A stretch of DNA of 64,000 bases from Natrinema mahii (GTDB lineage: Archaea; Halobacteriota; Halobacteria; Halobacteriales; Natrialbaceae). The DNA lies in the NCBI GenBank assembly GCA_000690595.2, contig JHUT02000001.1, positions 434,001 through 498,000 on the forward strand, given 5' to 3'. This document shows positions 5,873 to 36,721 of this stretch, in pieces; the first letter of the stretch is position 1; every line of letters begins with the position of its first letter. The position numbers and the translations under genes are program-made. Under the pieces are notes generated by a model. It was not told where the DNA came from. It saw only the letters and a program-made list of their open reading frames with translations, and did not search any database.

Positions 5873-7732
5873 TCAGACGACGAGCAGCCAGAGGACCACC
5901 GTCAGGACGAGCGTCAGCAGGAGGACGGTCGTCCCGATGCTCGTCCGGAGGTGGATCGTCGACGGTCGGCCGCCGTCGGTCGGTCGCCGCTCGTCGACCT
6001 CGACCAGCGGGAGTCGCCGCGCGGCCGCGTCGACCGCGAGGACGGGGTTGTTCCCGGCCCAGTAACAGCGCTTGACCGCGCCGACGACGGCCCGGTCGAC
6101 GGCCGCGTATGTCTCGGTCACCGCGATCATCGTCCACCGACTGACGTAGTAGGTCGCGGGGTAGACGACCATCGCCGGATCCCCGAGATCGAGCTTCGAG
6201 AGCGGTTTGCGGACGACGACGAAGGTGACCGCGGCGACGCCCGTCAGGATCCCCGCCGTCTCGAGGTGGCTCGTGCTGTAGGGATGGAGTTCGCCTTCGC
6301 CGCTGGGATACGCGAACGAGAAGTGTCCCCCGTGAGCGTGGAGCGTCGGCGCGAGATCGGCCAACCCCTCCCACCAGACGCCGAAGAGGAGACAGGCACC
6401 GCCCAACCCGAGCATCGCGACGGTCTGGCCGGGCTTGGCGTCGGCGACCTCGAAATCGCTCTCGCCGTGGAAGAAGACGTAGTAGCCGAGTTTGATGAAC
6501 GACAGGAGGGTCCCGATCGCGCCGAGCCAGAGCAGCCAGTACAGGGCCTGGAATTCCGGTTCACCGTAGTAGTGGGGGTCCGGATTGGCTGCGTCAAAGA
6601 GCATCCCCTTACTGACGTAGCCGTTGAACCCGGGAATCGCGGTGATCGAGAGGGCACCGAGTCCGAACGCGATGGCGGTCAGGGGCATCTCGCGCCAGAG
6701 GCCACCGAGTTCGTACAGGTCCTCCTCGCCGGTGCGGTAGATGACGACACCGACGGCCATGAACAGCAGGCTCTTGAATAGGATGTTGTTGAACAGGTGA
6801 GAGAGCGCGCCGGCGACGGCGATTTCGCTGGTCACCGTCCACGCACCCATCCCGATCCCAGCGACGATGTAGCCGAGTTGGGCCTGAATGTGGTAGGACA
6901 GCAGCGCACGCATATCGTGTTGCAGTAGGGCGAATGTCGCGCCGTAGACGGCCATCAGCCCGCCCATGTACGCGATGTAGATCCCCAGCTCACTCTGGGC
7001 GTCGACCGGAAACGCCCGGTAGAGGACGAACGCGCTCGTCTTGGTCGTGTAGACCGAGAGGAACACCGAGGCGGCGATGTGGGGCCGCGGGTAGGTGTCG
7101 GGCAGCCACGTGTGAACGCCGATGAAGGCGACGTTGACGCCCATTCCGAGTACCGCGAGCAGGGCCGGGATTCCGTCGGCGATCCCCGTGGCGTCGTAGA
7201 CGAAGGTCCCCGCCTGCACGTAGTGGGCGGCGACCGCCAGCATCACGAGGACGCCGCCGGTGCCGTGGAAGAGGGCGTACCGGAAGCCGGCCCGGACCGC
7301 GTCGCCGCCGTAGTGCCAGACCACGAGGGTGCTTGTCACGGCCATCAGCTCCCACATGAACAACAAGACGAGCCAGTCGCCGGCGAAGGCCGCGCCGACC
7401 GACGAGGCCACGTAGACGAGCGCGAACGCGACCAGCGTTGTACTGGCCTCGCTCGAGTAGGCGTAGACGACGCTACAGACCCCGAGGAAGCCCAGCCCGA
7501 GCCCGATCATCCGGGAGAAGTCGTCGACGTAGTAGGGGACGACCTCGAACCCGAGGAAGGTCCCGGCCAGGTGCTGGCCCTCAGGCGCGACCAGCGAGAT
7601 CGCGAGGACGGCCGCCAGGCTGAGCGCGCCGATGGCGAAGCCGGCGATCCGGGGCAGGACGAGGACGAGCAGCGCCGCCGCGAAGATCAACAGCGGCGGG
7701 TACGCAAGCGACAGGAGTTCGAGTTCCATCAT
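5873..7732 (-). CDS. Mrp/complex-I antiporter-like membrane subunit (MrpD/NuoL-M type, third copy)
   Basis: 619-aa polytopic protein of the proton-conducting ND2/4/5 family. Landmarks include the membrane Glu in WLVLLFMWELMAV (about residue 128), a membrane Lys/His region in the discontinuous-helix repeat (HTWLPDTYPRPHIAASVFLS), and the second repeat LLSYHIQAQLGYIVAG. The C-terminal extension after residue 500 ends with a final hydrophobic helix (VLLLTLVLTVVLWLLVV). It is the last gene of the antiporter operon and its ATG overlaps the upstream stop by 4 bp. It would move protons or sodium within the Mrp complex. Which of the three paralogues matches MrpA-N or MrpD is not certain. Confidence 0.88.
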   Translation of the reverse strand: MMELELLSLAYPPLLIFAAALLVLVLPRIAGFAIGALSLAAVLAISLVAPEGQHLAGTFLGFEVVPYYVDDFSRMIGLGLGFLGVCSVVYAYSSEASTTLVAFALVYVASSVGAAFAGDWLVLLFMWELMAVTSTLVVWHYGGDAVRAGFRYALFHGTGGVLVMLAVAAHYVQAGTFVYDATGIADGIPALLAVLGMGVNVAFIGVHTWLPDTYPRPHIAASVFLSVYTTKTSAFVLYRAFPVDAQSELGIYIAYMGGLMAVYGATFALLQHDMRALLSYHIQAQLGYIVAGIGMGAWTVTSEIAVAGALSHLFNNILFKSLLFMAVGVVIYRTGEEDLYELGGLWREMPLTAIAFGLGALSITAIPGFNGYVSKGMLFDAANPDPHYYGEPEFQALYWLLWLGAIGTLLSFIKLGYYVFFHGESDFEVADAKPGQTVAMLGLGGACLLFGVWWEGLADLAPTLHAHGGHFSFAYPSGEGELHPYSTSHLETAGILTGVAAVTFVVVRKPLSKLDLGDPAMVVYPATYYVSRWTMIAVTETYAAVDRAVVGAVKRCYWAGNNPVLAVDAAARRLPLVEVDERRPTDGGRPSTIHLRTSIGTTVLLLTLVLTVVLWLLVV

Positions 7733-9654
7733 TCGTTTACCTCCGTCATGAGTTCGTCAAAGGGGACGGTCCCCAGTTCCTCGAAGGGCATCCCGAAGAC
7801 CTCCTCGACGATCCGCGTCGCCAGCTCGAGGAAGACCGCGTAGTCGGGGCCGACCCCGAGGACGACCGCGCCCGTCGCGATGACGGCGATGGGCGCGAGC
7901 ATGAGCCACGTGCTTTCGGTAAACGGCGAGCGACGTTGCCAGATGTCGGCCGGCGGGCCGCCGGTGAGGTGGTCATCGTGGTCGCCGTGGTGATCGACGG
8001 CGCTGACCTGCTCGCCACCGGGGACGTCGGCGTCGCTCGGGTGTTCGTCGACGGCGTACTCGTAGTCGCCGTCGTCGGCCGCGGCGACGCGGTCCGACTC
8101 GGCCGTGTCCCCGTCGCCGGCAGCCGCATCGGCCTGATCGGCCTCGCCGTCGGTCGGCCGGCCACCGTCGGCGGCGACGTCGTCCTCGGTGGCGTAGGAC
8201 TGTCCCAGTCCGCCGGCCGGGAACTCGAGCAGCGGTTTGGCGTCGTGGTCGTCCTCGCTCTCGAAGAAGGCGGTGTAGACGACCGGCCAGAAGTAGCCGA
8301 CGTTGAGGACCGCCGAGAGCAGCAATGCGCCGGCGAACAGCCAGTAGCTGCCGCCGACGTCGGCGCTGCCGATCAGCATGTAGAACTTGCTGACGAAGCC
8401 GGCGATCGGCGGGAGTCCGGCCATCCCGGCCGCGCCGATCGTAAACGCGGCCATCGTCAACGGCATCCGTTTGCCGATGCCGGCCATCTCGCTGATGTAG
8501 TCCGTGTGGGTCTCGACGTGGATCGCCCCGGCACAGAAAAACAGCGTCAACTTCGCGAACGCGTGGGCAGGGATGTGGAACAGGGCCCCGACCACGGTGT
8601 AGGGATGGAGCAAGGAGAGCCCCAACACGATATACGAGAGTTGGGCCGTCGTCGAGTAGGCCAGCCGGCGCTTGAGGTGGTCTTTCCGCATCGCGATGAT
8701 GCTGGCCGCGGTCAGCGTGAACGCGGCGACGATGGCGACGGGGATGTTGAGCCCGACCTCGCCGATCCCCGGGACATCGAGCGGGAGATCGTAAATGAGT
8801 CCCGGCCCGTAGACCTCGAGGATGACTCGAGCGATGCCGAACGCGCCGGATTTGACGACCGCGACGGCGTGGAGCAGCCCGGAGACGGGCGTGGGCGCGA
8901 CCATCGCATCCGCGAGCCAGGAGTGAAGCGGCATTAGCGCGGCCTTGACGCCGAAGCCGGCGATCAGCAGGAAGAAGGCGGCCTGTGCGTAGACCGGCTC
9001 AGCCTGTGCCGCCGCAGCCAGCGCCTCCATTCCGCCGGCCTCGAAGGCCAGCGTCGGCTCGCCGACGAGGCTCGTCAGCCAGTAGATCATGACGGTGCCG
9101 GCCAGCAGGAAGACCCCGCCGCCGAAGAACGTGTAGGTGAGGTACTTCCGGCCGGCGATGCGGGCCTCGCTGTCCTCGTTGTGGGCGACCAGCGGGTAGG
9201 TCACCAGCGACAGGAGTTCGTAGAAGACGAAGATCGTCACCAGGTTCGCGGCGAAGGCGATCCCGACCGCCGCCGAGAGGCTGGCGGCGAAGGAAGCGAA
9301 GAAGCGAGTCTGGGAGTGCTCGTCGAGCCCGCGCATGTAGCCCGCCGCGTAAAAGGAGGTAAAGATCCACAGGAAGCTCGCGAGCAGGGCGAAGAAGATC
9401 CCCAGCGGGTCGGCCCGCAGGGCGAAGTCCAGTCCCGCGAGGAACTCGATTCCCGTCGAGTCGGCGAGGCTCCACCGGAAGACGGTGCCGTCCATGACCG
9501 CGGGGAGCATGCTGACGACGATGCCGAACTTCGCGAGGGCGGCCAAAACGGACCACCCCTCGCGGAGGTTCGGCCGGCGATGCGACGCGACGATCAGGAC
9601 GATCGCGACCGCCGAGACGAGGACGGCCGCGAGCGGACGGATGTCGGCCACCAT
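7729..9654 (-). CDS. Mrp/complex-I antiporter-like membrane subunit with acidic, His-rich loop (second copy)
   Basis: 641-aa ND2/4/5-family antiporter subunit. It has the conserved ATNLVTIFVFYELLSLVTYPLV-type helix with its membrane Glu (about residue 168), the HSWLADAMVAPTPVS motif (about 245) and the KRRLAYSTTAQLSYIVLG segment of the second repeat. A long hydrophilic insertion (encoded about 7925-8265) between the last two membrane blocks is very rich in Asp, Glu and Gly and includes VDHHGDHDDH, a possible metal- or proton-binding patch. ATG overlaps the upstream stop (9654-9656) as ATGA. Because it is the longest copy it may stand in for the MrpA N-terminal domain, but that is inference. 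Confidence 0.88.
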   Translation of the reverse strand: MVADIRPLAAVLVSAVAIVLIVASHRRPNLREGWSVLAALAKFGIVVSMLPAVMDGTVFRWSLADSTGIEFLAGLDFALRADPLGIFFALLASFLWIFTSFYAAGYMRGLDEHSQTRFFASFAASLSAAVGIAFAANLVTIFVFYELLSLVTYPLVAHNEDSEARIAGRKYLTYTFFGGGVFLLAGTVMIYWLTSLVGEPTLAFEAGGMEALAAAAQAEPVYAQAAFFLLIAGFGVKAALMPLHSWLADAMVAPTPVSGLLHAVAVVKSGAFGIARVILEVYGPGLIYDLPLDVPGIGEVGLNIPVAIVAAFTLTAASIIAMRKDHLKRRLAYSTTAQLSYIVLGLSLLHPYTVVGALFHIPAHAFAKLTLFFCAGAIHVETHTDYISEMAGIGKRMPLTMAAFTIGAAGMAGLPPIAGFVSKFYMLIGSADVGGSYWLFAGALLLSAVLNVGYFWPVVYTAFFESEDDHDAKPLLEFPAGGLGQSYATEDDVAADGGRPTDGEADQADAAAGDGDTAESDRVAAADDGDYEYAVDEHPSDADVPGGEQVSAVDHHGDHDDHLTGGPPADIWQRRSPFTESTWLMLAPIAVIATGAVVLGVGPDYAVFLELATRIVEEVFGMPFEELGTVPFDELMTEVNE

Positions 9655-11201
9655 CAGTTGAACACCTCCGTGACGAACGGCTCGAGCAGGTCGGCGATCG
9701 TGCCGCCGGCGAAGCCGAGCGCGACGGCGGCGACGGCGGCGACCACGACGACGGCGATCATGCCGATCGAGACGGGATCAGCCGCCCCCGCGCCGCGGAT
9801 CGCGGCCGCGGCGTCGGTGTCGGCCGTTCCGCCGTCGGTCGCGGCCGGCCCCGGGCGACTCGCGTCGGCGGGTGCCGACGGCGTGAAGTACATCTTCTCG
9901 AGCAGGCGGGCGGCGTAGGCGAGGGTGAGCATGGTACTGAGGAAGATCACGGCTGCGACGGGCCAGAGCTGCGATTCGACGGCACCCAGGGCGATGTACC
10001 ACTTGCCGACGAAGCCGACGCCCGGCGGGACGCCGACCAGCGCGAACAGGAGGACGGCCATGGAGCCGGCGACGAACGGCCGGCGTTTGGCGAGGCCGGC
10101 GTACTCGTCGACGGTGCGCGCGCCGTAGCTCGTCGCGACGAGGGCGGCTCCGAGGAAGAGGCCGGCCTTCAAGAGGCCGTGTCCGACCAGATGGACGACG
10201 GCACCGACCAGCGCGGTTTCGGACTCGCCGGCGACGACGACGCCGTAGGCGGCGATCACCAGCCCGAACTGCGACACCGACGAATAGGCGAGCATCCGCT
10301 TGACGTCGGTCTGAATCACCGCCAGAACGGTGCCGGCGAGGACGCTCACGCAGCCGATCGTCAGGACGATCGGGGCGAGGTTCGGCACGGCGGCGAGGTA
10401 GTCGACGCCGAAGACGGTGACGATGATGCGGCCGAACGCGTACGCGGAGGCCGTCGAGACCAGCGCCGCGATCAGCGGCGTCACACCGTCGGGGGCCCGG
10501 TGGTAGGCACTTGGCTGCCACGTGTGTAGCGGCCACTGGGCGACCTTGACCGCGAAGCCGACGATCATGAACCCGATGCCGGCCCGAATCAGCGTGGCGT
10601 TGGCCTCGGGGATCGCGGCGGCGAGTTCGACCATGTTGAGCGTCCCGGTCGCCATGAAGACGAACGCGACGCCGATCAGGTACATCGAGGCGGCAACAGT
10701 CCCGAGGATCAGGTACTTCAGGGCCGCGACCGCCGCCTCGGGGCCGTCGCCGCTGGCGACCAGAGCGTAGGTCGCGATGCTCGAGATCTCGAGGAAGACG
10801 AAGAGGTTGAACACGTCGCCGGTCAACGAGATGCCGAGTAGACCGGCGACCAGCAGCAGGTAGGCGGTGTAGAACGTGTTCCCGCGCGGGCCGCCCCGGC
10901 GCGTGTACGCGAGGACGCCGGTCGCGACCGCCGTCACGAGCAGGACGATCAGCATCGAGAACTCGTCGGCGACGAGTTCGATTCCGTACTCGCGGGGGTA
11001 GCCACCGAGCCGGTGAATCACGTTCTCACCGGTGTAGACTTCGTTCGCGAGGGCGACGGCTCCGACGAAGAGGCCGCTGGTCGTGGCCGCGGCGACGGAC
11101 CAGCCGGTCCGATCGAACCACAGGCCGAGCGCGATCGGCAGCGTTGCCGCCAGAATGGGGGCAGCGATCAAAAGCGGCGGCAGCAGGTCGATACTACTCA
11201 T
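9654..11201 (-). CDS. mnhD: Mrp antiporter subunit D-like protein (first copy)
   Basis: 515 aa from ATG at 11201 (MSSIDLLPPLL). An in-frame upstream start at 11243 would overlap mnhC by 50 bp, whereas 11201 gives the 8-bp overlap typical of this operon. Features: GDVFNLFVFLEISSIATYALV with the key membrane Glu, KVAQWPLHTWQPSAYHRAP, and DVKRMLAYSSVSQFGLVIAA. Length and order right after mnhC match MnhD/MrpD of bacterial Mrp complexes, which couple Na+ export to H+ entry. The C-terminal 45 residues include an acidic Gly/Ala-rich linker followed by one more helix. Confidence 0.9.
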   Translation of the reverse strand: MSSIDLLPPLLIAAPILAATLPIALGLWFDRTGWSVAAATTSGLFVGAVALANEVYTGENVIHRLGGYPREYGIELVADEFSMLIVLLVTAVATGVLAYTRRGGPRGNTFYTAYLLLVAGLLGISLTGDVFNLFVFLEISSIATYALVASGDGPEAAVAALKYLILGTVAASMYLIGVAFVFMATGTLNMVELAAAIPEANATLIRAGIGFMIVGFAVKVAQWPLHTWQPSAYHRAPDGVTPLIAALVSTASAYAFGRIIVTVFGVDYLAAVPNLAPIVLTIGCVSVLAGTVLAVIQTDVKRMLAYSSVSQFGLVIAAYGVVVAGESETALVGAVVHLVGHGLLKAGLFLGAALVATSYGARTVDEYAGLAKRRPFVAGSMAVLLFALVGVPPGVGFVGKWYIALGAVESQLWPVAAVIFLSTMLTLAYAARLLEKMYFTPSAPADASRPGPAATDGGTADTDAAAAIRGAGAADPVSIGMIAVVVVAAVAAVALGFAGGTIADLLEPFVTEVFN

Positions 11202-11571
11202 CGGCACGCACCTCCCGAAGGGTGTCCTCGCGGAGGGTGCCATACTCCGAATAGATCCGGATGATCAGCGCCAGCCCGACCGCGGTCAGCGCGATGCCGA
11301 CGACGATGGCGGTCAGCACGATGACCTGTGGCAGCGGGCTCGCGACCATGACCTCCCCCGGCGTCCCCTCGTGGGGGACGATCGGTGCCGAGGCACCGTC
11401 GACGTCGATGTAGGCCATCGCGACGAAAAACAGGAAGATGGCCGTCTGGAACAGGTTCACCCCGATCAGCTTCTTCACGAGGTTCTCGCTGGCGATCACC
11501 ATGTAGATCCCCAGTCCGAGCAGCGCGAACATCAGGACATAGAGGTAGTGGCTCGTCAGCAGTTCAATCAT
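11194..11571 (-). CDS. mnhC: Mrp Na+/H+ antiporter subunit C (NuoK-like)
   Basis: 125-aa protein with three membrane helices. The NuoK/MnhC signature GIYMVIASENLVKKLIGVNL is at residues 21-40 and ASPLPQVIVLTAIVVGIALTA at about 77-97, the classic subunit C motif. It is homologous to the NuoK subunit of complex I and interfaces with subunit D. Overlaps mnhB upstream by 8 bp and mnhD downstream by 8 bp. Length matches the family (about 115-125 aa). Confidence 0.93.
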   Translation of the reverse strand: MIELLTSHYLYVLMFALLGLGIYMVIASENLVKKLIGVNLFQTAIFLFFVAMAYIDVDGASAPIVPHEGTPGEVMVASPLPQVIVLTAIVVGIALTAVGLALIIRIYSEYGTLREDTLREVRADE

Positions 11572-18097: not shown

Positions 18098-18472
18098 TTG
18101 AGAAACGAGCAGGTCGTAGATCTTGACGTTGCGCTGTTTAGTCGACATGGCACTGATCCGGCGGCTGCGTTTCTGCAGAAACTCCGCGAGAAACACGATC
18201 TCTCAGAGGCTGAGTTTCTCGTCGATCAATTTGGCTATCGGACTGCCCTCTCTCGAGTCGGACTGAGCGGTCAGGTCAACTATACCGACCGAAACCTCAT
18301 TGAAAAGTGGTTTCACACCCTCAAAATGAGAATCGACCGCTTCCATAATTCATGGGTGGGCAGTCGGGCGAGCGTTCGAGAGTGGCTTGAACAGTTCGTG
18401 CATTACTACAATCACCAGAGACCGCATCAAGCTCTCGATAGAAACGTACCAGTTGCGGAGGTACAGAACTAG
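18098..18472 (+). pseudogene. IS6-family transposase remnant, N-terminus missing
   Basis: Only the C-terminal half remains: similarity starts at about 18121 with LDVALFSRHGTDPAAAFL, then the second catalytic Asp region FLVDQFGYRTAL and the Glu in NLIEKWFHTLKMRIDRFHNS, ending HYYNHQRPHQALDR. The helix-turn-helix and the first catalytic Asp of the DDE triad are absent, so it is inactive. The bases 18083-18120 form an unrelated junction with the MITE on the left. The element's right end is intact at 18480. Confidence 0.85.
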
Positions 18473-20329: not shown

Positions 20330-21256
20330 TTACGATTTGCGGACGATCGTCGGCCCGGCCATCGTCGGGACCGCGCTTTCGCCGGCCCAGACGGTGCTTT
20401 CCTGCCGGTCTTCGATCGGGTCCTCGAACGCCGAAATGCCCTCCTTGACGGTCTGTTCGGGGAGGTCGTCCGGATCGATCATGTCGAGGCCGCCCGCCGT
20501 GGGCGAGTACGCCCAGAGCCGAACGGCCTTGCGGAGGGTGTTGAGATTGATACTGACGAGGCGGTTCGCGATCGTGACGCCGCTGTCGTAGACGTCGTCG
20601 GTCGTCTCGATCAGGTTCTCCGCCTCGAGCAGTCCCTCGTTGGGCGTCGCGAACTCAGCCTCGTATCGCTCCACGCCGTCGGCGATGTTCGAATCGCTGA
20701 AATCAACCTCGAGTTCGATGTAGGTGGGTCGGAACAGGTTTGACGAGACACCGGTTTCGGTGTGATATTCGGCGCTGAGAGAGCCGGTTGCGCTTTGACT
20801 CTCGACCGTCGTCTCGGTGCTCTCGATCGTCCAGCTCCAGCCATTGTTTTCGTAGGACGTTCCGGGAGTGTTGGCGTCGAGTCGGACGTAAACCTCGCCG
20901 ACATCGCTCGGATCGGCGTCCGTCGCCCAGCTGATGACGAACGGAATGTCGACGGTATAGGAGTCGCAGTTCCCGCCGAACCAGCCGCAGTTACGCAGGG
21001 ACTCGTTGCGGTGCATGCAGATCGCGTCCGCGTTCCACTGGCCGTTGACGACGCCGGCTTGCTCCGGACTGAGCGGCGTGTCGTCTTTCCGGAACAGCGT
21101 CGGAACGTCGAGCGAGCAGAGGAACCCGGCGCCGGTCGCGGCGGCACCGAATCCGGGAAGCGTCGCCGCGGCGAGTCCGGTCCCGCCGACGGCCTTTAGC
21201 ACTGTTCGTCGCGAGCGATTCGATCGACCGTCCACATGATCAGTGCGATCGGACAT
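20330..21256 (-). CDS. Tat-exported protein of unknown function
   Basis: 308 aa. A twin-arginine signal (SNRSRRTVLKAVGGTGLAAA, residues about 12-31) directs folded export, followed by cleavage near AAATGAG. The mature part is acidic, predicted mostly beta, with four Cys (FLCSLD, ICMHRN, NCGWFGGNC) that could form disulfides outside the cell. No enzymatic motif or C-terminal anchor was recognised. The start ATG at 21256 is nearly leaderless relative to the TATA at about 21284-21294 and sits 7 bp from a perfect palindrome. Convergent with pyrD (27-bp gap). Confidence 0.75.
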   Translation of the reverse strand: MSDRTDHVDGRSNRSRRTVLKAVGGTGLAAATLPGFGAAATGAGFLCSLDVPTLFRKDDTPLSPEQAGVVNGQWNADAICMHRNESLRNCGWFGGNCDSYTVDIPFVISWATDADPSDVGEVYVRLDANTPGTSYENNGWSWTIESTETTVESQSATGSLSAEYHTETGVSSNLFRPTYIELEVDFSDSNIADGVERYEAEFATPNEGLLEAENLIETTDDVYDSGVTIANRLVSINLNTLRKAVRLWAYSPTAGGLDMIDPDDLPEQTVKEGISAFEDPIEDRQESTVWAGESAVPTMAGPTIVRKS

Positions 21257-21649: not shown

Positions 21650-22220
21650 CACGCGGTCCCTGTCGGCAGCGGACGGCCGGAACGGGAATATAAACGGGCT
21701 GCTACTTTCAGGCACTGAGAATCGTCACGGGAAACGGTCAATTCGGATTCGACGATTGTCGACTGCAGCGCGTCCCCAGGCCGATTCCGGACCGGGATCA
21801 GTGATGCGTCCGAACGGGGCGGGCCACCGCCAGCAGGACCGTCGATATCGACGATCGCTCGAGGAATATTATTTCGGTTAGTTAAATGAAATATATGTGT
21901 ACCAAGTATACGTTCTGTACGCTCTGGGAAGAAACATACGGACGAAATTAATTTCGGATAGTGTCAGATTCAGCTACTAGTGGTAGTCAGTAACACTATC
22001 GTCTGTGACGAACGATTGAGGCGATGAGACGGGCCAGAACGGGTATAGCTTTCAGCTAAAACGTTCTATCTGAACCATAACTATCTATATTTGACTGTTT
22101 TCTCGACTCGATGGGGAAGGTCATGAACACGGGACCGAACGGCGGACCGACGACGAGGGGAAACGACCAACCGGGGATCGCTCTCCGGAGGCCGACAGTC
22201 AGGTTCGAACGCGGGGGAGC
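21650..22220. other. 571-bp AT-rich intergenic region with nested palindromes
   Basis: No gene is visible. AT content is far higher than in the flanking genes. Contents: TATA-like patches at about 21865-21900 and 22079-22090 (CTATCTATATTT), a perfect 14-bp palindrome at 21943-21956 and a long imperfect hairpin at 21957-22000. It serves as the shared upstream region of the minus-strand small acidic protein and the plus-strand regulator at 22221. Confidence 0.5.
21943..22000. repeat. Palindrome plus hairpin cluster
   Basis: CGAAATTAATTTCG (21943-21956) is a perfect 14-bp palindrome. It is directly followed by GATAGTGT (21957-21964) whose perfect complement ACACTATC closes at 21993-22000; inside, CTAC and GTAG can form a second short stem. 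It may be an operator pair, an RNA hairpin or a mobile-element footprint. Confidence 0.45.
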
Positions 22221-22826
22221 ATGGTGATGACGAAGCTCCAGCGGGTGATGACTCGAACGGAGTCTCGCTCACCGACGCTCTCACAGGACGTCGCCTTCGA
22301 GATGCTGAGTTGCAGACGACGGCGATACGTCGTTCACTACCTCAAACGGCGAGAGGAAACGACCGCGTTGCGGGAGCTAGTCACACGGCTCGCGGCCTGG
22401 GAGAACCGCGTCGCCGTGACTGACGTCACCCACGAGCAGCGAATGCGCGTCTATACCGCCCTCCGCCAGTCACACTTGCCGAAACTGGACGAGAGCGGCA
22501 TCGTCGCCTTCGACGCCGATCGGGGCACCGTCGAACTCACCGCGGCCGGCGAGACGCTCGAGGTGTATCTCGACGTCGTGCCGCACAACGACATCTCCTG
22601 GAGCAAGTACTACGTCGGGTTGGGAATCCTCTGTACCGGTTTCGCCACCGGTATGTGGCTCGGCGCGCTGCCGTTCTCGCTCGTCCCACCGACGGTCGGG
22701 GCGATGCTCGTCACGCTTTTGTTCACCGTCTCAGCGGCGTTTCACGTTCGGTACGATCGCCGGATGCGACTGGAAACCGACACCGAAGCACCGCGTCGGC
22801 CACCGGGGGCGAACCGATGGGACTGA
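22221..22826 (+). CDS. Membrane-anchored winged-helix regulator (DUF7344 type)
   Basis: 201 aa. The N-terminal part (about residues 20-115) is a winged helix of the haloarchaeal type that begins EMLSCRRRRYVVHYLKRREE and contains LRQSHLPKLDESGIVAFD. Two membrane helices follow (about 133-172), leaving a short basic tail. This is the DUF7344 pattern as I recall it: a DNA-binding head tethered to the membrane. Located immediately upstream of a signal peptidase and overlapping it by 10 bp, so it likely controls or senses the export module. Two more proteins of the same kind are in the window (31852, 35732). Confidence 0.78.
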   Translation: MVMTKLQRVMTRTESRSPTLSQDVAFEMLSCRRRRYVVHYLKRREETTALRELVTRLAAWENRVAVTDVTHEQRMRVYTALRQSHLPKLDESGIVAFDADRGTVELTAAGETLEVYLDVVPHNDISWSKYYVGLGILCTGFATGMWLGALPFSLVPPTVGAMLVTLLFTVSAAFHVRYDRRMRLETDTEAPRRPPGANRWD

Positions 22827-23506
22827 ACCGCAGGACGGCCGTGTACGTTGTCGGCAGTGTACTGCTCGCGGCGCTGCTCGTCCTCGTCGCGATCGTTGCG
22901 TTCCCGGGACTCGTCGGCGGCGATGACGCCTACGTCGTCACGTCGAACAGCATGGAACCGACGATCGAATCGGGCGATATCGTCGTCACGAAAGCCGTCC
23001 CCCCCGAGGGGATCGAGGCCGGCGATGTCGTCACGTTCCATGCAGACACCACCACCGACCGCGGATACGTCACCCATCGTGTCGTCGAGATACGTGAGGA
23101 AGACGGCGACCGGTACTTCAAAACGAAAGGCGACGCGAACGACGTTCCCGACGAGGGATACGTCCCTGCAGACGCCGTGCAAGGCGTCCAACACCGCCAC
23201 ATTCCGTCTCTCGGATATCTATTCGTGTTCGCTCGCTCGAGTGTCGGGCTCGTCGCGCTCGTCGTCCTCCCGGGGCTCGTGCTGGTTGCATCGGGGGGAT
23301 GGCAGTTACTCCGAGAGCTCGGCTACGTTTCGGATCGTGAGCATATAGCCCGTAAATTACTGGGTGCAAAGAAGGCCGCGACAGCCACAGATGGCGAAAC
23401 CACGTCGGGGAGCGAGTCCGACGGACGGTCTGAGGCGTCCGGTAGAGAGGCCAACCAGCCAGTCCTCGGAACCCAGAACAATGATATTCGAACAGGTGAG
23501 GACTGA
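22817..23506 (+). CDS. Signal peptidase I (archaeal Sec11/SipW type)
   Basis: 229 aa from ATG 22817. One N-terminal membrane helix (residues 6-33) precedes the catalytic Ser in TSNSMEPTIESGDIVV (about residue 45); the family His is in GYVTHRVVEI and Asp in KTKGDANDVPDEG, which is the Ser-His-Asp arrangement of Sec11/SipW rather than the bacterial Ser-Lys form. A second hydrophobic segment is near 145-168, followed by a charged tail. Overlaps the regulator upstream and the small CalY-like gene downstream (TGATG). Probably dedicated to processing the CalY/TasA-like proteins next door. Confidence 0.87.
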   Translation: MGLNRRTAVYVVGSVLLAALLVLVAIVAFPGLVGGDDAYVVTSNSMEPTIESGDIVVTKAVPPEGIEAGDVVTFHADTTTDRGYVTHRVVEIREEDGDRYFKTKGDANDVPDEGYVPADAVQGVQHRHIPSLGYLFVFARSSVGLVALVVLPGLVLVASGGWQLLRELGYVSDREHIARKLLGAKKAATATDGETTSGSESDGRSEASGREANQPVLGTQNNDIRTGED

Positions 23507-23850
23507 TGGCGGATGATACCGCGACTCGACTCACGGTCGTATTGCTCGCTCTCGGAGTGATGATCGTCGGCGGAACATTGGCACCGTCAGCGGCGTTACT
23601 CTCCGAGGAAGAGACATTCGACGGCAGTCGTTTCGGTACCGCTTCCGACTGGGACCAACCGAACGGCGAGAACGAATCGGATAATAATTCGACTGCCCAG
23701 ATCGATACTTCGTCCGCAACGAACGCGACGGAGATTAATATTTCCTCGAGCCGAGAAAGGGCCGTCGCTCCCGATTCGAACACGATTAACGGAACGAACG
23801 ATTCGGGGACCGGGAACGCGACGACCGGCACCATCAACGAATCCCCGTAG
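23506..23850 (+). CDS. Small exported CalY/TasA-like protein, sequon-rich
   Basis: 114 aa. N-terminal hydrophobic segment LTVVLLALGVMIVGGTLAP then AALLSEEETFDGSRF, the pattern seen at SipW cleavage sites of camelysin/TasA-like proteins. The rest is Ser/Thr/Asn-rich and contains about nine N-X-S/T sequons in 75 residues, so it may be densely glycosylated outside the cell. Shares the operon with the regulator and the signal peptidase (start overlaps the stop as TGATG). Confidence 0.65.
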   Translation: MADDTATRLTVVLLALGVMIVGGTLAPSAALLSEEETFDGSRFGTASDWDQPNGENESDNNSTAQIDTSSATNATEINISSSRERAVAPDSNTINGTNDSGTGNATTGTINESP

Positions 23851-24290
23851 GTTCGGCCGAACGATCTCGTCGCGGCTCAAGCGGAGACGGACGGTGGCGG
23901 TTGGTTCCCGAGACGTCGCGGTCCGTGATCGGCCGTTCGATCCCAGAGCGGTCTCTTTTCGACTGTCTCTCACAGGAACGATCTCTCGAACCTAACCCAC
24001 AGAACGTCTCCGAGATCGAAACGATCGTCGGTCGCTTCGGCGAACCGTCCGCCGCCGACGGTGAAATTCGTACTCCCGTAGCGCGCCTTCTCGTGAGAAA
24101 CACCTCGACAGCAGCGATTCGAGTCCGCTTCGACGTGTGGATCCATCAACACGGGATCGAAAACGGAGCAGACCCGACCGGCGACCAGCCGAGACTCTAT
24201 CACGGGAGACGCACCGCTTTCGGACGGAACTGTCCTCGAGAAGCGACGGCCCAGATGCCGTCGATCAGAACAAAAAGATGGGCAACTCAG
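23851..24290. other. 440-bp region without a supported gene
   Basis: Lies between the convergent CalY-like genes. Frames on both strands are Arg/Ser/Thr-rich and not protein-like. No clear repeat or RNA was seen. Confidence 0.45.
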
Positions 24291-25535
24291 CTACTCGTCG
24301 ACCCACGGACTCACAGGGGTGTCGTTGTGGCGACACTGCTCGGTGTAGAACTGCAGGTCGAACCCGACGGACTTGTCCTGTACCACGTTGCCGACCTCTT
24401 TCGGAAGACACCATTTGAACCCGAGATACTGTGTCGTGGAGTTGGGAACGCACACTGGGTCGTCGTCCTTGTCGGGACAGTAGTAGAACGTCAGGTTACT
24501 GATCGCGGCCCGCTGGTCGCCGTCGTTCTTCGGAGCGATTACGTCGTCCCCCTTTGTCGCGCACTCGTCGTAAGGGTATGTTTTCGTCTTACTTCCATTG
24601 TCCTCATTGTTATCTGAACCACCGCCACGATTGCTCCCACCGCCTACGACGATCTTGCAGATGTCTGGACCATCTACCACTTTCCAGTTGAATCCGTACG
24701 TTTCAGTTTTGTCATCCTTTCTCCGCACGTCCGTCAACTTGATCTTGGGGCCGGGGTCCGAAAACTCGATCGTCGTTCCGGCCTCGAGTTTCTCGGGATC
24801 ATGCGTCTCGGGATCCGTATACTCGCTGAGGTTGTCATCGTCTAGCTTTTCGAGTTTGACACACTCATCTGAATGCTTTCCTGCGGTCCTCTCGGACGGG
24901 GCGCCGTCCAACAAGATGCCGTCGTCCAGTTCGTCGAAAACGTCCTTGAGCGAACCGTCGACGATGACCGGATCCTCCTCGTCGGGTTCGTTGTCCGCAT
25001 CGAGATCGTACCACAGCGTCGCCTCGATGTTCTCCGCGAGAGTCGAATCGTACGTGACGCCCGTCGTCCGGAGCCAGAGCCAGCCCGGGTTATCACAGAG
25101 GTGGTAGCTGAACGTGATTTCGCCACAGTCGCCGGGCTTGATGTCCTCGAGGGCGATCAGCGAATCCTGATCGCCACCGAAGTAGTACTCGTTATCGAGA
25201 TACTCTCGACAGTAATCGATCTCGCTGTCGCCGAGGTTCCGGCCGAGATCGCTGTACTTGTACTCCGTACCGTTGATTTCGATCGACTGCTCGCCGTCCC
25301 TGTCGTGATCGGGGTGTGCGTTGACGAACTCCCATTTTTCGGTCGGGCCGTAATATCGCTGTTGCCAGTCGAGTTTTAGCTCGAGTTCGCCAGTCGTGAG
25401 GTCATTGCCGTCTAGCGTCTCTCCGTCGCTGAAGAACGCACTCGTGCCTGCACCCACGAGTGCCCCACCGACACCGATCGTGCCGAGTCCTGCCAATACG
25501 TTCCGTCTCGAGATCGAATTCCGTTTGTCTGTCAT
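24291..25535 (-). CDS. Tat-exported CalY/TasA-like surface protein (SipW-dependent type)
   Basis: 414 aa from ATG 25535. The N-terminus combines a twin-arginine motif (SISRRNVLAGLGTIGVGGAL) with the SipW-type continuation GAGTSAFFSDGETLDGNDLT and then TGELELKLDWQQRYYG, which is the TasA/camelysin N-terminal domain pattern. The body has ten or more Cys, unusual for a haloarchaeal surface protein, and Asp/Glu-rich strands resembling Ca2+ sites (DLDADNEPDEEDP). Probably a structural surface fibre or matrix protein processed by the signal peptidase at 22817. A longer start at 25577 would precede the Tat signal without reason. Confidence 0.75.
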   Translation of the reverse strand: MTDKRNSISRRNVLAGLGTIGVGGALVGAGTSAFFSDGETLDGNDLTTGELELKLDWQQRYYGPTEKWEFVNAHPDHDRDGEQSIEINGTEYKYSDLGRNLGDSEIDYCREYLDNEYYFGGDQDSLIALEDIKPGDCGEITFSYHLCDNPGWLWLRTTGVTYDSTLAENIEATLWYDLDADNEPDEEDPVIVDGSLKDVFDELDDGILLDGAPSERTAGKHSDECVKLEKLDDDNLSEYTDPETHDPEKLEAGTTIEFSDPGPKIKLTDVRRKDDKTETYGFNWKVVDGPDICKIVVGGGSNRGGGSDNNEDNGSKTKTYPYDECATKGDDVIAPKNDGDQRAAISNLTFYYCPDKDDDPVCVPNSTTQYLGFKWCLPKEVGNVVQDKSVGFDLQFYTEQCRHNDTPVSPWVDE

Positions 25536-25837
25536 GGATTCTCTCCCCCAGTCCGTGGGAACTCCATCGGCGGCCAAACCGCCGTCTCATCCTTAACTGG
25601 GACATCACGGACATCCCGGCCACCGGTGGTATATATACACAGGCAGGAAAATCCCTAGAAGGAACCTCAGTTCGAGAAGTAAGCGAATTATACAGGACAG
25701 TTACGCCGATCGAAAACAGTCGTTCGCTACCGCTACGGGAGTAGCAACAGCGATTTCCATCGGTTTCTGAGTCTATTCCCCGGCTCGAGTGGTCTCACGG
25801 GGAAACAAACGGCTAAAACGACGGTTCGTGAGGGTAG
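25536..25837. other. 302-bp intergenic region with a strong TATA box
   Basis: GTATATATAC (25629-25638) is a palindromic TATA box preceded on the plus strand by the palindrome CCACCGGTGG (25620-25629). It most likely serves the minus-strand CalY/TasA-like gene, giving a leader of about 65-75 nt. The rest is AT-rich with no gene. Confidence 0.5.
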
Positions 25838-29502: not shown

Positions 29503-31665
29503 ATGAACGCACGCAAACAGGTACTGGTCGTACTCACCGCGCTGATGGTGGTTTGCTCCGGCGGGGCGATGGTCACAGCAGCTTCTGGCTCTGGGGCCGT
29601 CGATTCGGGCGACACCACAGGCGACGGCGAATACGACTCGGCGAACGAGACGGAGAGCGACGAAACAACGACGGACGACGCAGGCGCCGACGAAAACGAC
29701 ACGGAACCGGTCGTCGATGAGGACCAGGCGACGACGGACAACGACACTGGCCTCGAGGAAGACGCGGCCGGCCAGCAGTCCGCGTACGTGACGTTCGAAG
29801 ACCAAGAGACCGACGGGCAGACGGTCGTGGTCGAGAACGTCACGCTCGCCAGCGGCGGCTTCGTGACGATCCACGACAGCAGCCTCCTGGTCGGTGACGT
29901 CTTCGAGAGCGTCATCGGTACCTCCGCGTATCTCGAGGCGGGGACCCACGAACAGGTCGAAGTCACCCTCGACGAACCGCTCGAGGAGGACGAGACCCTG
30001 ATCGCGATGCCGCATCGGGATACGAACGACAACGAGACGTACGATTTCGTCGAGAGTGAGGGCGCGGCCGACGGGCCGTACCTCACGGCCGACGACGAGC
30101 CGGTGACCGACGACGCAGTGGTCTCCGTCGGCGCGGCCGACGAGGAGCCCGTTGCCGAGGAACCGGCTGAAGAGGACAACGAAACCGTCGTCGACGACGA
30201 ACCGGTCGAAGAGGATAACGAAACCGTCGGCGATAGCGAACCGGTCGAAGAGGATAACGAAACTGTCGGTGACGATGAACCGGTCGAAGAGGATAACGAA
30301 ACTGTCGGTGACGATGAACCGGTCGAAGAAGACAACGAAACCGTCGGTGACGACGAACCGGTCGAAGAAGATAATGAAACCGTCGTCGACGATGAACCGG
30401 TCGAAGAAGACAACGAAACCGTCGGTGACGACGAACCGGTCGAAGAGGACAACGAAACAGTCGTCGATGAACCGGCTGACGAAGACGAGGACGTCGTCGA
30501 CGAACCGGCGATGGACGACGGGCTAACGATCAACGTCGTGATCGAACAGCTCACCGTCATCGTCGGCGAGAACGGTGACGGCCTCGAGATGAACGGCGAG
30601 ATGGACGCCGGAGACGAGCAGGCTGACGACGGAGCGACCGTCGACGAAAACGAGACCGACACTGACGACGAAACCGAGTCGGACACGACGGACGACGGAA
30701 CTGCTGCCGACGTCGCCGGACTGCTCGGTGACGGCGACATCTCCCTCGAGCAGGTGACGATCACCGTCGACGTCGAGAACATCGAGATCCAGAGCGCGTC
30801 CGACGCCCCCTCGCAGGGCGACGGAGCCGGCGATGATCCCGACACCGAGACTGACGACACTGCAGCCGGCACCGACGACGCTGCGGACGGTGACGATGGG
30901 GCCGTCGCGGACGATGGTGACCAGCAGGGCGACCAGATCCAGGTGACCATCGAAGAGGCCACCGTGAACGTCAACCTCGGCGGCATGGACGAACAGCCCG
31001 TCGAGGACGAACCGGCTGAGGATGAGGAGCCGGTCGAAGAGGAGCCGACCGAGAACAACGAAACCGAAGACGACCTCGAGCCGATCGAGGACGAACCGGC
31101 CGACAACGAAACTGAGGACAACGAAACCGAAGACGACCTCGAGCCGATCGAGGACGAACCGGCTGACAACGAAACCGAGGACAACGAAACCGAAGAGGAA
31201 CCGGTCGACAACGAGACGGAACCGGCGGCGGGCTTCGAGGTCAGTAACCTCGATGCGCCCGCGAGCGCCGAAGTCGGTGACACGATCACCGTGACGGCGA
31301 CGATCGAGAACCCGAGCGACGAGGAACGCACCGAGACGGCGCAGTTCCGTCTCGACGGTGACCTCGTCGACGAGCAGAACGTCACGCTCGAGGGCGACGA
31401 GAGCGACGACGTCGAGTTCGAGGTCGACACGAGCGACCTCGCGGCCGGCGACTACATCCACATGATCCTTGCCGACCAGACCGGTGAAGTCGCGACCCTC
31501 GAACTGACCGAGGCGACCGACGACACCGAGACTGACGACACCGAACTCGAGGACGGCGAGGACGGCCTCGGGAACGACACCGACACCAACGAAACTGCGG
31601 ACAACGGGACCGACGACGGTCTCGAGAACGATACCGACGAAGAACCCGCACTCGTCGGCGCGTAA
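29503..31665 (+). CDS. Large acidic, sequon-rich secreted surface protein
   Basis: 720 aa. Signal peptide MNARKQVLVVLTALMVVCSG, then a DUF7282-like beta domain (residues about 88-205, starting AYVTFEDQETDGQTVVVENV). Residues 223-316 are eight 13-residue repeats of the form EEDNETV-x-DDEPV, and a second type (DDLEPIEDEPADNETED) repeats near 520-560. A CARDB-like adhesion domain follows (FEVSNLDAPASAEVGDTITV, about 580-660). Each repeat contains the sequon NET; about 25 N-X-S/T sequons occur in all. No C-terminal PGF anchor or membrane helix, so it is released or held by charge. It probably binds cations. Confidence 0.78.
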   Translation: MNARKQVLVVLTALMVVCSGGAMVTAASGSGAVDSGDTTGDGEYDSANETESDETTTDDAGADENDTEPVVDEDQATTDNDTGLEEDAAGQQSAYVTFEDQETDGQTVVVENVTLASGGFVTIHDSSLLVGDVFESVIGTSAYLEAGTHEQVEVTLDEPLEEDETLIAMPHRDTNDNETYDFVESEGAADGPYLTADDEPVTDDAVVSVGAADEEPVAEEPAEEDNETVVDDEPVEEDNETVGDSEPVEEDNETVGDDEPVEEDNETVGDDEPVEEDNETVGDDEPVEEDNETVVDDEPVEEDNETVGDDEPVEEDNETVVDEPADEDEDVVDEPAMDDGLTINVVIEQLTVIVGENGDGLEMNGEMDAGDEQADDGATVDENETDTDDETESDTTDDGTAADVAGLLGDGDISLEQVTITVDVENIEIQSASDAPSQGDGAGDDPDTETDDTAAGTDDAADGDDGAVADDGDQQGDQIQVTIEEATVNVNLGGMDEQPVEDEPAEDEEPVEEEPTENNETEDDLEPIEDEPADNETEDNETEDDLEPIEDEPADNETEDNETEEEPVDNETEPAAGFEVSNLDAPASAEVGDTITVTATIENPSDEERTETAQFRLDGDLVDEQNVTLEGDESDDVEFEVDTSDLAAGDYIHMILADQTGEVATLELTEATDDTETDDTELEDGEDGLGNDTDTNETADNGTDDGLENDTDEEPALVGA
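30169..30462 (+). repeat. Eight tandem 39-bp coding repeats
   Basis: Exact 39-bp period from 30169 to the eighth unit at 30442, each encoding EEDNETV followed by a variable G/V and acidic residues with Pro. Units differ mainly at third codon positions. Such arrays can change copy number by recombination. Confidence 0.85.
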
Positions 31666-31851: not shown

Positions 31852-32355
31852 TCAGGCGAGCAGTTGATAGAGGCTGCTCGCGCCGACGACGAGCAACACC
31901 AGCACGCTCGAGAGGACCGGATCGAGAGCCGAGATCCCCGGGAGGCCGAGCCCGACCAGCGCGATGATCGCGAGCCCGAGGAGACAGCAGCCGAGGTGTA
32001 GCTGCAGGACTCGAGAGTGATCGTCGGCGTGGCCGTCGACGTACTGCAGGACCTCGTCGAAGTGCCGGCCGGGCCGGATCGTCTTCGCGTCGGAGTCGTA
32101 CTCGATCACGTCGTCTTCCTCGAGCTGGGGGAGATGGGTCTGCTGGAGGGAGACGTAGACGCTCTTGTAGAGGTTGTTCGGGACGGGAGTCGTGTCGGAT
32201 TCGGTCGCGGCGATCTCGGTCGCGACGTCGGAGACGTCGGTCTGTCCGCCGTCCTCGGCGAGCAACTGGACGATCGCTCGTCGCCTGTCGTTGCCGAGGA
32301 TGTGAAACACTTCGCTCTCCGCCAACGGGTCAGCTCGGTTCGTTTGAACTGACAT
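31852..32355 (-). CDS. Membrane-anchored winged-helix regulator (DUF7344 type)
   Basis: 167 aa. N-terminal winged helix (EVFHILGNDRRRAIVQLLAE ... LQQTHLPQLEEDDVIEYD, residues 14-90) and two C-terminal membrane helices (about 120-165). Same architecture as the proteins at 22221 and 35732. It faces the acidic surface protein gene convergently. Direct targets unknown. Start at the ATG of MSVQTNRADP. Confidence 0.78.
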   Translation of the reverse strand: MSVQTNRADPLAESEVFHILGNDRRRAIVQLLAEDGGQTDVSDVATEIAATESDTTPVPNNLYKSVYVSLQQTHLPQLEEDDVIEYDSDAKTIRPGRHFDEVLQYVDGHADDHSRVLQLHLGCCLLGLAIIALVGLGLPGISALDPVLSSVLVLLVVGASSLYQLLA

Positions 32356-32709
32356 CGATCAGGGAGAAGGGGAGCCGATTCTCGAGAGGCGATCCACCAC
32401 CAGTGACCATATCCCGCTAGTTCCGCCACCACTGACTTTAACTTTTGCAGGTTACGGGGGTCGCCGGCCGGGGCCGCGAGCCGGCGAGGTTCGGGAACCG
32501 GGGTAGGGAGCAGGTACAGCGGCGGCTACGACGGACGGTATGTCGGTCCGCGGTCCGCCTCGAAAAAGGGTGACCCGCCTCTCGGGAACTGCGAACCGAC
32601 GCGGCGAACCGATCGGCACGGCTGGCAAAGCGGCCGACGGAGCGTCGAACCGGCGGCCGAGTACCGGCGAGTCGGAGGGGGTAGCGTCGTCGCTCGACTC
32701 CGGCCGCGG
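32356..32709. other. 354-bp intergenic region
   Basis: No gene is supported. AAGTTAAAGTC on the minus strand at about 32430-32440 is a weak TATA candidate for the regulator ending at 31852. The remainder is GC-rich and featureless. Confidence 0.4.
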
Positions 32710-35731: not shown

Positions 35732-36268
35732 CTACCGGCCCGCGAGCCCGATCGAACGGCGGAGATCGGACCGACGAGACACGTGATGAACCGCCGCGAG
35801 CCCGAGAACGACGAGACAGAGGACCAACGCCACGAGCGGCGCGGCGGCCGTCGTCAACGGGCCGACGGCGAGTATCGACGGGACGACGGCGATTACGCCG
35901 ACGACCGTCACGCCCCCGTAGAGGTACTGCCACGGCCGCTGGTCCTCGAGGTGGCGATCCAGATACGGGTCGAACCGCTCCTCGCTCGGCAGCAGTTCGA
36001 TCCGGTGGCCGTCGGGGTCCCAGTCGACGATACCGTGGTCCTCGAGCATGGGGAGGTGGGTCTGGTACAGCGAGATGTAGACCCGGCGGCGCTGGGTCCG
36101 GGTGACGTCGTCGGGATCGGTGTCGTTCTCCCAGGCGGCGACCTGTTCGACGAGCGGTGCGAGGTCGCAGGCGCCGCCGGTGCGTTTGAGATACTGGACC
36201 GCGTGTCGTCTGCGTGCGTTGCTGAAGACGTCGAACAGTTCGGCCTGCGTGAGGTCGCTCTCAGACAT
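35732..36268 (-). CDS. Membrane-anchored winged-helix regulator (DUF7344 type)
   Basis: 178 aa. Winged helix: ELFDVFSNARRRHAVQYLKR (about 10-30), EQVAAWENDTDPDDVTRTQR, YQTHLPMLEDHGIVDWDPDG; then two helices (about 118-160) and a basic tail. Third member of the family in the window. It sits between the DUF1616 gene and the start of the glycan operon, whose promoter region (36269-36721) it shares divergently, so it is a candidate regulator of that operon. Confidence 0.8.
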   Translation of the reverse strand: MSESDLTQAELFDVFSNARRRHAVQYLKRTGGACDLAPLVEQVAAWENDTDPDDVTRTQRRRVYISLYQTHLPMLEDHGIVDWDPDGHRIELLPSEERFDPYLDRHLEDQRPWQYLYGGVTVVGVIAVVPSILAVGPLTTAAAPLVALVLCLVVLGLAAVHHVSRRSDLRRSIGLAGR

Positions 36269-36721
36269 GTGTGCCCTCGTCGTGTCCCAGTGGGTCCCGT
36301 TCCGATCTGACGGGTGTATTCGGATAGCTCACGGACTCGAGTGACAGCGATTGCCACTTTACTATCACCGGGCTACCCGTTCGAAATCGAATTGTACCAG
36401 TTAGCGTCCGTGACAGACGCTGCGACCGAGATTTCGTCGATCCAACGGGGTGTGACTACCCGATCGCGATCGTGACGGCGATTCCCAGCGACCGCGGGAA
36501 GCGGCCGACAGCGACGCTGTAGTTCCCGGCTACGGGCCGCTCAGGGCGGGGATAACAAAGCCTCGTTACCGGGTGTGTCAGCACGACTGCCCACGCGGGT
36601 ATCGATTCACTATGGAACGACTACACGACCGACGACGAACGGCGGTTCGAACGCGGACCGCGCGTGACCGCGCTCGCCCGGGCGAGCGCCGGACTGCGCC
36701 CGGCCGCATGCGAGGTGGACG
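36269..36721. other. 453-bp divergent promoter region of the glycan operon
   Basis: Contains the GATAACAAAG motif at 36551-36560. A short frame at 36612-36725 (37 codons, Arg-rich) ends in an ATGA overlap with the acetyltransferase start and might act as a translational leader. GAGGTG at 36711-36716 is a Shine-Dalgarno match 5 nt before ATG 36722. Nothing else is supported. Confidence 0.45.
36552..36560 (+). promoter_or_regulatory. GATAACAAAGC motif of the WbpD-E-B-A-like operon
   Basis: ATAACAAAG in the context GGGGATAACAAAGCC. It is 161 bp before the acetyltransferase ATG, or 51 bp before the small leader frame at 36612. Confidence 0.55.

Follow-up and report, generated by a model that had tools for sequence, protein, structure and literature searches.

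TasA fibres, protein fibres of the biofilm type, are known from Bacillus, and TasA-like fibres from Pyrobaculum. The tapA-sipW-tasA genes of Bacillus (camelysin CalY in B. cereus) bring together a TasA-family subunit, a SipW-type, endoplasmic reticulum (ER)-like signal peptidase and the small partner TapA, the initiator of the TasA fibre. PMC10151520 gives the anatomy of TapA and the overlap of its gene with that of SipW, and names F29, P62, F200 and Q232 as conserved residues of the TasA filament contact. The archaeal bundling pili of Pyrobaculum (AbpA) are cited in PMC9674648 and PMC9715654 as an archaeal TasA-like donor-strand fibre, and the tafi of haloarchaea (TafA, NF052520; Galeva 2025) are surface fimbriae exported through the twin-arginine (Tat) pathway, as cited in PMC12687288. 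Among open-access papers, none on haloarchaeal TasA-family proteins was found; an earlier mention in papers on archaeal bundling pili or tafi is possible. Here, we analysed a 64,000-nucleotide stretch of Natrinema mahii (assembly GCA_000690595.2, contig JHUT02000001.1, positions 434,001 to 498,000), called the window below, which holds four genes, A to D. We propose, with a probability of roughly two in three, that A-B-C plus D is the haloarchaeal counterpart of Bacillus TapA-SipW-TasA, with the fibre subunit re-routed to Tat.

Gene content and arrangement of the locus

The window carries A, B and C on the forward strand and D, convergent to them, on the reverse strand:

22221..22826, forward strand: A, a DUF7344 winged-helix protein with a hydrophobic C-terminal segment, a probable membrane-tethered regulator (PF24035, E 1.1e-28)
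22817..23506, forward strand: B, a SipW/ER-type signal peptidase I with Ser45, His87, Asp106 and Asp112 (TIGR02228)
23506..23850, forward strand: C, a small Sec-type secreted protein of 114 amino acids with a SipW-like box and an Asn/Ser/Thr-rich tail
24291..25535, reverse strand: D, a TasA/camelysin-family protein of 414 amino acids with a Tat and SipW-type signal, a probable fibre subunit

This four-gene observation was confirmed. The reading frames of A and B overlap by 10 nt (ATGGGACTGA) and those of B and C by 1 nt (TGATG), which bears out the claim of an earlier note on this DNA that the regulator, peptidase and small-protein genes are translationally coupled. The same note had described a convergently encoded, 414-amino-acid, Tat-carrying SipW-type protein with many cysteines, and D indeed has its arginine pair at residues 10-11 and contains 10 cysteines. 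Its view of B as a Sec11/SipW-type peptidase also held. B matched the archaeal signal peptidase model TIGR02228 with 116.4 bits (cut-off 52), and Ser45, His87, Asp106 and Asp112, which we take to be its catalytic positions (a Ser-His-Asp set in place of Ser-Lys), are each invariant in 21/21 aligned peptidases. The match to the Bacillus SipW model NF046067 (95.2 bits) stayed below the cut-off of 190, and B is therefore named SipW-type rather than SipW.

D is related to TasA in its mature part

The homology of D to TasA was assessed by comparing A1, a 16-member alignment of the D family, with A3, which gathers 13 short camelysin-type (M73/TasA) proteins of archaea, haloarchaeal and non-haloarchaeal, taken from the PF12389 and A1 matches. 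With the signal included, hhalign returned 99.7%, and with mature parts only it aligned two blocks in order, at 96.6% and 95.9%. The A3 profile in turn found the solved Bacillus TasA structures 5of1 and 8aur over the mature part with E about 1e-9. This intermediate was needed to link D to solved TasA, because PDB searches for D-type proteins with single sequences or with the A1 or A4 profile returned nothing beyond chance matches and matches to signal peptides. On these profile comparisons D, rather than C, is the TasA/camelysin-family member, and this homology speaks against the refuting case named in the earlier note, that neither protein has a TasA-like fold. PF12389 itself (TasA/camelysin) matched 15/16 A1 members with E no higher than 0.1 (the lowest 9e-08), and close D relatives in two genomes (G021 and G061) exceeded its cut-off once the pieces were summed. 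The parts of D are as follows:

25437..25535, reverse strand: signal peptide, residues 1-33, with an SRRNVL Tat motif, a Gly-rich core and a GTSA|FFSD SipW-type box (putative cleavage site)
24900..25166, reverse strand: TasA-core block 1, residues 124-212 (DIKPGDCGE...HLCDNPGW), matching the mature profiles of archaeal TasA and of small D
24480..24899, reverse strand: Cys-containing insert, residues 213-352, with no Pfam match, in the gap between the two TasA blocks
24318..24479, reverse strand: TasA-core block 2, residues 353-406 (GFKWCLP...GNVVQ...FDLQFYTEQCRHN), hhalign of mature A1 95.9% against A3 and 99.7% against A4

The E-values of the local searches with mature blocks refer to about 40 sequences, not to database size. 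In A1 the twin arginine is invariant, and the alignment further shows a box of the GTxA[FY]FSD type, the core KPGD...HLCDNPGW and, C-terminally, FYTEQCRHN.

The four TasA filament-contact residues have counterparts in the D family. The columns matching F29, P62 and Q232 are F35 (F in 15/16), P134 (16/16) and Q400 (16/16), and that matching F200 is W375 (W in 16/16; aromatic, not F), a correspondence that was taken from the A3-versus-TasA alignment and is the least certain of the four. In A3 the same columns hold F in 12/13, P in 13/13, mixed residues at the F200 position and Q in 13/13.

The insert of about 140 amino acids between the core blocks opens another explanation, namely that D is a secreted or surface-displayed adhesin or binding protein of TasA fold that does not polymerise, with the insert as its working part and with B and C serving only to export and anchor it. 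The size and the cysteines of the insert would suit such a role, the acidic tails of the C homologues fit surface display, and a von Willebrand A (vWA) domain, a common ligand-binding module, lies in the insert's part of the protein in 8/20 long D paralogues (and in 1/16 A1 members). The filament-contact residues are, however, invariant or nearly so in D, and its mature N-terminus shows the same degree of conservation as that of TasA-type proteins; we consider the adhesin explanation unlikely.

D and the SipW-type peptidase occur together

The distribution of the genes was examined in a family-level sample of 125 genomes and an order-level sample of 392 genomes from 95 genera. D relatives were present in 47/125 genomes of the family, and the D profile matched 176/392 genomes and 62/95 genera of the order; no D relatives were found in viral contigs. 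B gave matches at E 0.001 in 117/125 genomes, with scores falling into two groups separated by a gap between 68 and 46 bits, and matches above this gap were counted as SipW-type, a cut chosen after the gap had been seen. By this measure 39/125 genomes have a SipW-type B and all 39 also have D, 8 have D without a SipW-type B, and 78 have neither. The co-occurrence is far beyond chance, with a Fisher p of about 8e-25; this value ignores the relatedness of the genomes, and for that reason, together with the choice of the cut after inspection, it overstates the case. The eight genomes with D-type matches and no SipW-type peptidase are G056, G071, G035, G087, G093, G094, G123 and G124, among which G035, G123 and G124 are incomplete.

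Gene neighbourhoods were compared in 39 B loci from 37 of the 39 genomes, the window included. An open reading frame (ORF) of the D family adjoins B in 39/39 loci, those of other layouts included, and a DUF7344-type ORF accompanies B and D in 38/39, the exception being a short contig. In the 3.8-Mb genome of the window, DUF7344 domains were matched 29 times, so that a chance DUF7344 neighbourhood of B and D is unlikely. Match coordinates in G005 and G041, the two genomes not among the 37, place a D match at most 3 kb from B. The layout of the window, A-B-C convergent to a single D (type 1), was found in 12 genomes including its own, and the C start codon overlaps the B stop codon in 12/12 of these loci; two further genomes carry two short D genes instead of one. 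In the type 2 layout several D paralogues stand in a row that has B as its last gene, and the DUF7344 genes run divergently to this row; in a third layout all genes lie on the same strand. The earlier note had put forward, as a check on its proposal, whether other haloarchaea carry the set; they do, with D in every compared locus and a DUF7344-type gene in all but one.

The long paralogues also include TasA-type Tat proteins with a vWA domain, among them the product of L047 7084-8589, which are possibly tip adhesins.

C is a small partner without a TasA-like mature part

The small protein C had been taken for CalY/TasA-like in the earlier note, and here that note did not hold. The C profile with its signal compared at 91.7% with the archaeal TasA profile, but its mature part alone reached 0.3%, with five column-shuffled controls at or below 0.1% (hhalign); the likeness is limited to the signal-box region, and C was rejected as a CalY/TasA-like protein. 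Family scans of C gave no match. The signal of C has no twin arginine and is more hydrophobic than that of D, and the tail in the window is a low-complexity, Asn/Ser/Thr-rich sequence with 9 NxS/T sequons. Most C homologues have a different beta domain, with weak matches to CARDB (1/12) or DUF1616 (5/12), followed by an acidic tail, and vary greatly in mature length; in the C of the window and in that of L033 the beta domain is lost and the Asn/Ser/Thr-rich tail kept. Sequence search recovered C in only 10/125 genomes, of which G036 and G109, at the least, are likely chance finds; the claim for C rests on synteny and not on similarity.

The coupling of C to B, its SipW-like box and the 91.7% obtained with the signal would also fit C being the real fibre subunit and D an unrelated Tat substrate that merely adjoins. 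Against it stand a mature part that is unlike TasA, varies greatly in length and is a low-complexity tail in the window, and the position of D, which adjoins B in the other layouts too, 39 loci in total; this explanation appears very improbable. C resembles TapA in layout only, and a TapA-like role is proposed for it by analogy.

The D signal combines a Tat motif with a SipW-type box

D matched TIGR04088, the NCBIfam model of SipW-dependent-type signals, with 20.5 bits (cut-off 19) and was the only match in its genome, and 16/16 A1 members matched as well, which is the outcome of the search for a SipW signal domain that the earlier note had suggested; the model spans the signal only and is silent on the mature domain and on Tat. 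R10, R11, G30, T31, A33 and D37 are invariant in 16/16 D-family sequences, the arginine pair lying in D within the motif S-R-R-N-V-L. The core that follows the motif is mildly hydrophobic: unlike C, D has no 19-residue window of hydropathy above 1.6.

The combination extends beyond this alignment. In 45 haloarchaeal loci, a regular expression found 95 box-bearing ORFs, 93 of which have RR within the 35 preceding residues, a motif count and not a Tat prediction or test; by eye, the two others are wrong-frame ORFs. Haloarchaeal camelysins found with the Pfam model have the RR too. Six loci outside the order gave 9 box ORFs with RR in 3/9, two of them having it upstream of the likely start codon and one inside the predicted protein. 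The pairing of a Tat motif with a SipW-type substrate, singled out in the earlier note, is therefore real and, judged by motif, general among haloarchaeal members.

A Tat signal is shared with the tafi, and a locus of that kind lies in the same genome (L151, G000:C9:63000-79000, at 5992-11351). It encodes two Tat-signal pilins, one of which starts like the pilin of PDB 9p0a, together with a protein carrying a beta domain, a peptidase of the S26 family and a DUF7344-type product. D could on this ground be assigned to the Tat-fimbriae system, since Tat signals, a DUF7344-type gene and a nearby S26 peptidase are common to both and the NCBIfam TafA model weakly matches the D signal (16 bits, cut-off 190). 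Sequence membership already fails, however, as the Taf pilins show no similarity to the D or TasA profiles (hhalign <1%, no hmmsearch match), belong to another family and have no SipW box, and their locus lies on another contig with a peptidase of its own; we rejected D as a TafA relative and give this assignment almost no credence. This genome may therefore hold two systems of Tat-dependent surface fibres, since the pilins of its Taf-like locus have no sequence relationship to D.

A and the elements upstream of A and D

A matched DUF7344 with 99.9 bits (cut-off 27.8), and its hydrophobic C-terminal region peaks near residue 152. A is thereby a probable membrane-tethered winged helix, as the earlier note had it, whereas control of the module's genes by A is a role that we only infer. 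Two more DUF7344-type genes (31855-32358 and 35735-36328, both on the reverse strand) lie less than 14 kb from the module. Different elements were found upstream of A and of D:

22065..22083, forward strand: TCTAY-N6-CATAACTA upstream of A, probably the A-B-C promoter, aligned upstream of A in type-1 loci
25629..25658, reverse strand: D promoter element CTAG-N15-TGTATATATAC upstream of D

Both patterns were counted in the 125 genomes, which include the loci from which they had been derived. CTAG-N14/15-TGTATATATAC has one site per genome in 10/125 genomes, all upstream of D, and its reversed control has 0 sites; the 64-kb window holds a single copy of GTATATATAC. The element of A has 12 sites, 9 upstream of A in type-1 loci and 3 elsewhere, and is not enriched in number, as its reversed-pattern control gave about 15 scattered sites; its evidence is accordingly its position. 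The D element is also kept in full in G041 before a truncated D (L052 8170-8616, a 149-residue frame with no A-B-C alongside), which looks like a decayed type-1 locus.

Proposed mechanism

The findings so far comprise homology for D as well as for B, the motifs, a conserved gene set with its translational overlaps, the promoter element and the conserved TasA interface residues, and from them we infer the following model for a TapA-SipW-TasA counterpart. D would provide the subunit of the fibre, a beta-sandwich of the TasA family interrupted by the Cys-containing insert, and its twin-arginine signal would export it through Tat, probably folded. B, with its Ser-His-Asp residues of ER/SipW type, would cleave D after GTSA and before the aromatic P2' residue, freeing an N-terminal strand that starts FFSD, and this strand would then fill the groove of a following subunit, in the manner of TasA donor-strand polymerisation. 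C, translated in step with B, exported by Sec and bearing a similar N-terminal segment, may start or anchor the fibre like TapA, and A may control expression from the membrane.

The likeness to Bacillus noted earlier is supported in that D is of the TasA family by profiles, B is SipW-type and the set is conserved. The two systems share the filament-interface residues, the coupling of the small partner gene to the peptidase gene by overlapping codons (PMC10151520) and the aromatic P2' residue (PMC10269814). The haloarchaeal subunit differs from that of Bacillus in its Tat signal and its insert, its gene is convergent and outside the operon, a DUF7344 regulator is attached, and C, compared with TapA, has no detectable homology beyond the N-terminus. 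The likeness to the Pyrobaculum pili is drawn by description and not by sequence. To our knowledge, neither a Tat signal nor this haloarchaeal gene set is associated with AbpA.

Several observations weigh against the counterpart model. The PF12389 match of D is confined to the signal region and falls just below the cut-off (22.0 against 22.5 bits), and a genome-wide PF12389 search of this genome (G000) does not report D. The insert is large and Cys-rich, unlike TasA, and the AlphaFold model of D, built from a two-row alignment, is too poor to use (predicted local distance difference test, pLDDT, 44.6; predicted template modelling score, pTM, 0.39). The TapA model TIGR04087 matches 1/12 C members and does so weakly (E 0.023), and no TapA chain is among the PDB matches of C. 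Moreover, 8/47 genomes with D are without a SipW-type B even by B-profile search, so some D relatives must use another peptidase or none.

That B is a housekeeping signal peptidase lying beside D incidentally can hardly be right: it passes the general archaeal signal peptidase model, but the SipW type is found in only 39/125 genomes, always with D, and the genome has a second, more distant peptidase (68 bits).

Within the counterpart model, a more specific order of events can be suggested tentatively, the odds being somewhat against it. Subunits would already be folded in the cytoplasm when Tat exports them, with the uncut signal withholding the donor strand until SipW-type cleavage outside the membrane triggers polymerisation; the Sec-exported TapA-like partner would give the first strand, and the promoter element found only before D would time its synthesis.

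Other features of the window

Three further features lie outside the module:

20330-21256, reverse strand: a protein of 308 amino acids with a Tat-like signal and no family match, for which 20 fetched loci and L031 held no relative and only its own ORF was matched
29503-31665, forward strand: an acidic protein of 720 amino acids with repeated EPVEEDNETV-type units
18098-18472, forward strand: a fragment resembling the C-terminus of an IS-type transposase

Implications

If the counterpart model is confirmed, a donor-strand fibre can be made of subunits that are exported folded, with cleavage of the signal as the trigger of assembly. The module would then also give haloarchaea a second Tat-dependent fibre besides the tafi, and one that is testable in genetically tractable relatives.

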